Source of the DNA: Candidatus Iainarchaeum sp.
GTDB lineage: Archaea > Micrarchaeota > Micrarchaeia > Anstonellales > Bilamarchaeaceae
DNA: 33,221 nucleotides
Direction: 5' to 3'
NCBI GenBank assembly: GCA_028713495.1
Contig: JAQTOF010000006.1
Coordinates: forward strand, 1 to 33,221
In this document: piece after piece, positions 23,785 through 24,833 of the stretch
How positions within the stretch are numbered: position 1 is the first letter of the stretch
How the letters are laid out: each line of letters begins with the position of its first letter
Made by a program: the position numbers and the translations under genes
The notes under the pieces: model-generated
What the model was told of the DNA's origin: nothing
The model's input: the letters and a program-made list of their open reading frames with translations, nothing else
Databases searched by the model: none

Positions 23785-23803
23785 GTAGGTATAAAAAACC
23801 TAC
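23785..23803 (+). promoter_or_regulatory. TATA box inside a perfect dyad: GTAGGT-ATAAAAA-ACCTAC, promoter of tRNA-Pro
   Basis: TATAAAAAA centred about 30 nt upstream of the tRNA 5' end (23826); flanked by 6-bp inverted arms. Confidence 0.6.
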
Positions 23804-23825: not shown

Positions 23826-23993
23826 GGGGTCGTGAGGTAACCTGGTATCCTGCAAGCTTGGGGTGCTTGTTATCTGAGCGGGCTTTTTAGTAAAAAGCTC
23901 GGCAAAAACGGGCCGTAAATTAAAAAGCTCCAGAAATTCAACCGGCTGATTACAAATACCTGCGATCGGCTGGAATAGATCTCAGCGACCCCA
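23826..23993 (+). tRNA. tRNA-Pro (anticodon GGG) interrupted by 102 nt at the T-loop (probable non-canonical intron or introns)
   Basis: Acceptor GGGGTCG(23826-32)/CGACCCC(23986-92) 7/7 bp, discriminator A 23993; D-arm AGG...CCT with loop AACCTGGTA; anticodon stem CAAGC/GCTTG with loop TTGGGGT; T-stem CTGAG(23874-78)/CTCAG(23981-85) 5/5 bp; CATTTTTC follows. Confidence 0.78.
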
Positions 23994-24041
23994 TTTTTCC
24001 CTTCGCCAAAGGTGTCGGGAATATCCAGGAGGATTGAGAAA

Positions 24042-24833
24042 ATGACGACAGAAAAAACCGGAATGCCTGTGAAACAGGACGTGTTCCTTGAGGCCGGCGT
24101 ACACATCGGCACCAAGATAAGGACAAGCGATATGAGGGAGTATATCTTCAAGAGGCGCGACGACGGATTGTATATCCTGGACCTGCGCAAGAGTTCCGAG
24201 AGGCTCATGGCTGCGGCCAAGATGATAGCCAAGTTCAAGCCTGAAGAGGTCACTGTGGTCGCATCCCGTGTATACTCAGGCAACCCGGCCGGAAGGTTCG
24301 CGGAACTCACCGGCGTGAACATCGTGAAGGGCAGGTTCGTGCCTGGCACTATGACCAACATGAATGTGGCTGGGTTCATGGAACCGAAGCTGGTCCTTGT
24401 CTGCGACCCTAAAGGAGAGCATGAAGCGCTTGTCGAGAGCGCCAAGAACGGCGTGCCAGTCATAGGTTTGTGCGACACAGACAACGAGACCAAGTTCGTG
24501 GATCTGATAATCCCGATAAACAACAAAGGAAAGCGCTCGTTGGCACTCATCTTCTACATCCTGTCAAGGGAGGTCATGATGGCCCAGGGCAAGATAAAGT
24601 CCTACGACGAGTTCACTTATGACATAGGCTACTTCGAACAGCTCGTCCTTGAGGAGAAGAAGGCCCCCGAAGGAGTGGAGGAATCAGCGCAGCCCGAGGC
24701 CGCTGAAGCCACCGCGGAGGCGCCAGCCGAGGCGAAGCCTGCGGAAGCCGAGCCAGCGCCGACTGAAGAGAAGAAAGAGGAAAGCGCTGAGGGCAAGGCT
24801 AAGGTAAAGAAGAAAGAAGAGAAGGCCGAGTAG
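24042..24833 (+). CDS. rps2: 30S ribosomal protein S2 with acidic/Ala-rich C-terminal tail
   Basis: FLEAGVHIGTKIRTSDMREYIFKRRDDGLYILDLRKSSERLMAAAKMI...PGTMTN...EPKLVLVCDPKGEHEALVESAKNGVPVIGLCDTDN. Confidence 0.95.
   Translation: MTTEKTGMPVKQDVFLEAGVHIGTKIRTSDMREYIFKRRDDGLYILDLRKSSERLMAAAKMIAKFKPEEVTVVASRVYSGNPAGRFAELTGVNIVKGRFVPGTMTNMNVAGFMEPKLVLVCDPKGEHEALVESAKNGVPVIGLCDTDNETKFVDLIIPINNKGKRSLALIFYILSREVMMAQGKIKSYDEFTYDIGYFEQLVLEEKKAPEGVEESAQPEAAEATAEAPAEAKPAEAEPAPTEEKKEESAEGKAKVKKKEEKAE

Follow-up and report, generated by a model that had tools for sequence, protein, structure and literature searches.

A Micrarchaeal tRNA-Pro(GGG) Gene with Two T-Arm Introns and a Dispersed Family of tRNA Introns with a Structured Core

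Introduction

Introns at positions 53/54, 56/57, and 59/60 of archaeal tRNAs are established, as are tRNAs that carry several introns (PMC4090602, PMC3218864). The tRNA-Pro(UGG) of Pyrobaculum islandicum, for example, has introns at 25/26, 37/38, and 56/57 (PMC4090602). Similar introns in different tRNAs of the Thermoproteales were described in 2010 and are ascribed to transposition by an unknown mechanism (PMC4090602, PMC4033280). Multi-intron tRNAs are also found in ARMAN-1 and ARMAN-2 (PMC12397907, PMC4033280), and the roles of residues of the ARMAN-2 splicing endonuclease, including Y160 and K161 in an ARMAN-specific loop, have been described (PMC12397907). The available part of the account of the Atabeyarchaeia and Freyarchaeia likewise reports an abundance of tRNA introns, which often lie at non-canonical positions and often share a gene with others; both groups are Asgard archaea, and that part reports no repeated intron family (PMC11291895).

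The tRNA-Pro(GGG) gene considered here resembles the multi-intron tRNA genes of the Thermoproteales in having several bulge-helix-bulge (BHB) introns at non-canonical positions. It differs in that both introns are in the T-arm, 5 nt apart, in that its host belongs to the Micrarchaeota (DPANN), and in the type of endonuclease. T-loop introns have been described before at 53/54 and 59/60, which makes the architecture in itself unremarkable. Transposed tRNA introns and tRNAs with several introns have likewise been described from the Thermoproteales. The intron family to which intron 1 belongs shares with the transposed Thermoproteales introns the occurrence of similar introns across different tRNA genes, implying spread. 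It differs from them in phylum and in having a structured core, a covarying stem, coupled T and A runs, both orientations, and copies beside tRNA genes. The ARMAN lineages have an endonuclease of the type found here, including the residues of the ARMAN-specific loop, but the descriptions of them consulted mention no family of dispersed introns sharing a conserved core like that of the genus studied here (PMC12397907, PMC4033280). Nor did we find a structured-core tRNA intron family in Micrarchaeota or other DPANN in the literature searched, which covers few subscription journals.

The tRNA-Pro(GGG) Locus

The window is the whole stretch of DNA analysed, 33,221 nt of contig JAQTOF010000006.1 (assembly GCA_028713495.1, positions 1 to 33,221, forward strand). 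The host assembly, from an uncultured archaeon assigned to Candidatus Micrarchaeota, has 1.02 Mb in 78 contigs and is 90% complete; like the genomes compared with it, it is a metagenome assembly. The best match to its rps2 is from ‘Candidatus Micrarchaeota archaeon isolate Sv348’, at 93% identity.

The ends of the tRNA span positions 23826–23993 of the plus strand, as do all features below. The acceptor stem, GGGGTCG/CGACCCC, is paired at 7/7 positions and is followed by a discriminator A at 23993; the anticodon arm reads CAAGC-TTGGGGT-GCTTG; and the T-stem strands, CTGAG (23874–23878) and CTCAG (23981–23985), pair at 5/5 positions across a gap of 102 nt (23879–23980). A TATA-box-like sequence, TATAAAA (23790–23796), a putative promoter element, is 30–36 nt 5′ of the tRNA, and a TTTTT run (23994–23998), a possible terminator, follows immediately. 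The next gene is rps2, encoding uS2 (24042–24833), a neighbour conserved in relatives. Thus, the complete tRNA ends, the TATA box, and the T5 run of the original prediction were all located.

The gene was detected neither by ARAGORN nor by Rfam at the gathering threshold, in keeping with the expectation that standard scans would miss it; at a permissive threshold, Rfam gave matches at the locus at chance level alone. A spliced alignment against a reference of 38 intact tRNAs, mostly from one related genus, recovered tRNA-Pro(GGG) at 23826–23993 with a score of 47.5, compared with a maximum of −6.5 in 100 shuffles of the region. This score, together with the conservation and compensatory changes in relatives described below, excludes a chance origin of the tRNA. 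Group I and group II intron models of Rfam had no match in the window region or at 40 loci, so self-splicing introns of these kinds were not recognised.

When the host genome was searched with the locus, it returned tRNA-Pro(GGG) itself, the related Pro(TGG), and one further match that consists of the intron core only. The search for an intact Pro(GGG) elsewhere, proposed with the original prediction, thus found no second gene, although an assembly that is 90% complete leaves room for one. Pro(CGG) is present and bears an intron of its own (L308). A sense copy of the element described below directly follows the 3′ end of the tRNA-Ser(GCT) gene of the same genome.

Orthologues and Covariation

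In many relatives, tRNA-Pro(GGG) adjoins rps2, and the orthologues differ in their introns, as follows. Those of some genera have no intron (L013, L014, L016, L019), and two have intron 1 only (L006, L050). Both introns are found in most species of the genus (L001–L005, L007, L010, L011, and others), and introns near 59/60 occur in further relatives (L017, L055). Among the orthologues, the TTCAA between the two introns is invariant. At the BHB of L050, the exon has TCCC and the intron GGGA, a compensatory change that keeps the pairing.

When seven orthologues were aligned, double compensatory changes were seen at 19 of the 53 pairs. The compensated pairs include acceptor pair 5–163 (T-A to C-G), three anticodon-stem pairs, and pairs in the helices of both introns. 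It follows that the two halves, although apart, evolve together as a single functional tRNA. A degenerate pseudo-tRNA, or an unspliced tRNA-like leader of rps2, would fit a position directly 5′ of rps2 and a T5 run, yet it would leave unexplained the compensatory changes that seven species show in their acceptor and anticodon stems, the functional-looking intronless orthologues at the same place, and our finding no other Pro(GGG) gene. We regard it as highly improbable. The decay of the stems by which a pseudogene was to be recognised is not seen; they are conserved in relatives.

Two Introns Rather than One

The original prediction described an insertion of about 100 nt exactly at the T-loop. 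The 102-nt gap stands, and so does the broader claim of a Pro(GGG) gene with its T-loop broken by archaeal-type introns, but the gap is not one insertion. Two introns, of 58 and 37 nt, stand in it on either side of TTCAA, and it ends with the final two bases of the T-loop, AT. Exon 1 (23826–23878; positions 1–53, from the acceptor 5′ strand to the T-stem 5′ strand) is read from the sequence and the spliced alignment. Intron 1 (23879–23936), at position 53/54 with the BHB TCTG-AG^C / CAGA-AA^T, is supported by alignment and orthologues, being the sole intron in L006 and L050. It is followed by the mini-exon TTCAA (23937–23941), which supplies T-loop positions 54–58. Intron 2 (23942–23978), at 58/59, is placed by alignment and orthologues; its BHB is GTTC (or ATTC)-AA^C / GAAT-AG^A, and it has the conserved loop TACAAATACCTGCG. 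Exon 3, ATCTCAGCGACCCCA (23979–23993), contains the end of the T-loop, the 3′ strands of the T-stem and acceptor stem, and the discriminator A.

For intron 2, the splice-site reading used was GTTC-AA^C / GAAT-AG^A, with four pairs. The central helix is thus paired at 4/4 positions at each intron, with 3-nt bulges at both splice sites, as in archaeal BHB tRNA introns. The outer helices adjoining intron 1 are weak, and its BHB would therefore be of the relaxed type. Removal of both introns in silico gives a 73-nt tRNA that ARAGORN calls as a normal Pro(GGG); when one intron alone was removed, ARAGORN made no tRNA call.

With the intron cost set to 7, the spliced aligner placed two introns, and with it set to 9, just one; the two-intron call was decided by the orthologues and the BHB motifs and not by the aligner. 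A single intron of about 95 nt across the T-loop, with the loop restored from its two ends, would accord with the better score of one intron at cost 9 and with a T-stem that closes over the whole insertion. However, no single cut restores the TTCAAAT loop, since TTCAA is central and invariant; L006 and L050 have intron 1 only, followed by TTCAAAT; there are two separate BHB helices; and ARAGORN is silent when just one intron is removed. The single-intron reading is accordingly exceedingly improbable.

The loop of intron 2 at 23951–23964 (TACAAAnACCTGCG) shows strong conservation throughout the genus, over a stem that co-varies; from the sequence comparison, this suggests a role for the loop beyond splicing.

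The Splicing Endonuclease

The host genome encodes a cognate splicing endonuclease of the epsilon type. This 403-aa protein matches the ARMAN-2 three-unit endonuclease (4fz2/9w2k) over its full length (2.4e-131), and, as read from the alignment, it retains the residues found at Y160, K161, Y236, H251, R275, and K282 of the ARMAN-2 enzyme. The PF01974 endonuclease family is present in 17/17 genomes of the genus. A second EndA-like protein, of 165 aa, is found beside the three-unit endonuclease (G000:C37:3709-3954, L176) in most genomes of the genus.

We propose the following course of events. The precursor tRNA-Pro(GGG) would contain, on either side of the 5-nt mini-exon, a BHB intron of 58 nt at 53/54 and one of 37 nt at 58/59. 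Both BHBs would be cleaved by the ARMAN-2-type three-unit endonuclease, after which a ligase would seal the exons into the normal 73-nt tRNA. Intron 1 itself is one copy of a structured element of about 55 nt, a hairpin S1-CTTTTTAGTAAAAAG-S1′ followed by a CAAAAAC loop, that has spread among the tRNA genes of the genus, acting as a whole intron at the D-loop, at 37/38, and at the T-loop. A functional tRNA-Pro(GGG), with two T-arm BHB introns cut by an ARMAN-2-type endonuclease and with intron 1 a copy of a spread element, is very probably the correct reading; judging from sequence, its transcript would be made and spliced in the cell.

A Dispersed Intron Family

The conserved core of intron 1 (23883–23912), CTTTTTAGTAAAAAG...CAAAAACGGG, is defined by its recurrence across copies; a core of the form CTTTTTAGTAAAAAG...CAAAAACNGG is also present in other tRNA genes. 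This membership in a dispersed family escaped the original prediction, which saw a lone insertion and to which the other copies were not visible. Copies were counted with a covariance model, and the counts include overlapping matches on both strands. So counted, the element is matched in 38 of the 84 genomes of the order and in 17/17 of the genus, with 1–59 copies each. Genomes of genus g2 have 16–25 copies, two genomes of another family have 18 and 10, and there is little else.

Placement was studied in a sample of 125 matches in 116 loci. tRNA introns hold 97 of these matches, 13 are near a tRNA yet outside an intron, and the remaining 15 have no confident tRNA, some of them because the reference library is without that tRNA. 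Whole-intron copies occur at the D-loop, at 37/38, and at the T-loop. Since 71 of the 96 distinct introns have a length of 50–59 nt, the element in most cases makes up the entire intron. A complete 4-bp BHB helix is reached by 53% of the 96, compared with 18% after intron ends were swapped among genes. Similar introns thus occupy different tRNA genes and positions, as in the transposed tRNA intron families of the Thermoproteales kind. Lineages of site-specific introns were considered and rejected, same-site cores being no more alike than different-site cores (permutation, 377/1000).

Several further placements were observed. Antisense copies abut the 5′ ends of Ser-GCT, Leu-CAA, Leu-GAG, and Pro-TGG genes (L111, G000:C1:280-469; L301, G000:C61; L302, G000:C50; L337, G002:C23). 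One copy starts at the 3′ end of a match to archaeal SRP RNA (L118, G010:C3:14462-14516; RF01857, 73.5 bits, under the gathering score), and another, 5′ of an ORF, has no tRNA recognised around it (L107, G000:C56:1374-1428). In genome G014, the tRNA genes L137, L130, and L138 have nested or very long intron clusters with several element copies.

Structure of the Element

In 114 distinct copies, the stem around CTTTTTAGTAAAAAG has a mean of 3.78 bp, as against 0.87 in exchanged copies, and 0/2000 permutations reach 3.78. The length of the T-run is correlated with that of the hairpin A-run (rho 0.77) and with that of the second-loop A-run (rho 0.79). T4 occurs with A4 in 31/33 copies, T5 with A5 in 54/64, and T6 with A6 in 6/11. 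At the T-loop site of tRNA-Trp, one species has T6/A6/A6 and another T5/A5/A5. The coupling of run lengths could also come from shared subfamily ancestry. A bistable arm, in which the 5′ strand would pair family-wide with a distal second copy, was rejected, since distal complementarity is 4.50 versus 4.43 in exchanged copies and 54/500 permutations reach it; among the tRNA-Pro orthologues, the distal pairing does co-vary.

Could the copies have converged independently on a hairpin suited to the endonuclease, instead of inheriting their shared core from a spreading element? Every copy is a hairpin, and the sequence of the S1 stem varies from copy to copy, as convergence would allow. Against this, mean core identity is 58%, versus 24% in shuffled sequences; copies are concentrated in genera g1 and g2 though the family’s other genera also have tRNA introns; and antisense copies and copies outside introns occur. 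Convergence is therefore unlikely.

Orientation and Mode of Spread

The anticodon loop, at 37/38, has 25 sense and 22 antisense copies, against 47 sense and 2 antisense at the other sites. The difference between sites gives a Fisher p = 8e-7, a value that is too small because orthologues were counted more than once. The D- and T-loop copies may have created the introns in which they are found, and the 37/38 copies may have entered older introns in either direction. In the tRNA-Ser(GCT) of genome G013, a 53-nt copy follows position 38, and the exons are 100% identical to the uninterrupted gene of the host genome. Elsewhere in the genus, most species have the gene whole, and some have it interrupted at this position.

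From these patterns, we infer that the element is mobile, and a route for its spread can be sketched. It is tempting to propose a lineage-specific non-coding element of about 55 nt that is actively spreading through the tRNA genes of the genus and whose insertion makes ready-to-splice introns, with sense copies giving new D- and T-loop introns and copies of either orientation entering 37/38. The lengths of the T-run, the hairpin A-run, and the second-loop A-run are matched, which would follow if the loop docked on a T/A helix as a triple. This proposal is tentative, and we consider it possible rather than probable.

A different means of movement would be that of a REP- or MITE-like unit mobilised by a Y1 transposase (IS200/IS605 or RAYT). 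Such units are small foldbacks with high copy number and both orientations, as is the element, and yet PF01797 is absent from the host genome and from G010, which has 50 copies, is present in 10/43 genomes with no link to copy number, and no target-site duplication could be established. Being absent from carrier genomes and unlinked to copy number, a Y1 enzyme was rejected as the mobiliser; the idea is largely refuted for Y1 and very unlikely as a whole. A viral origin was also rejected: the two-part core has no exact match in viral contigs, and the 15-mer alone matches at about chance level.

Significance

Because standard scans overlook a considerable share of the tRNAs in such genomes, apparent absences of tRNAs in Micrarchaeota need to be read with care. 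The way in which archaeal tRNAs acquire introns has yet to be settled. Here, there is a single recognisable intron family, found mostly in one genus, of near-constant length and with known orientation and position. Closely related species can have tRNAs that match except for one precise copy, which makes gain and loss measurable, and the family lends itself to work on the spread of tRNA introns in archaea.
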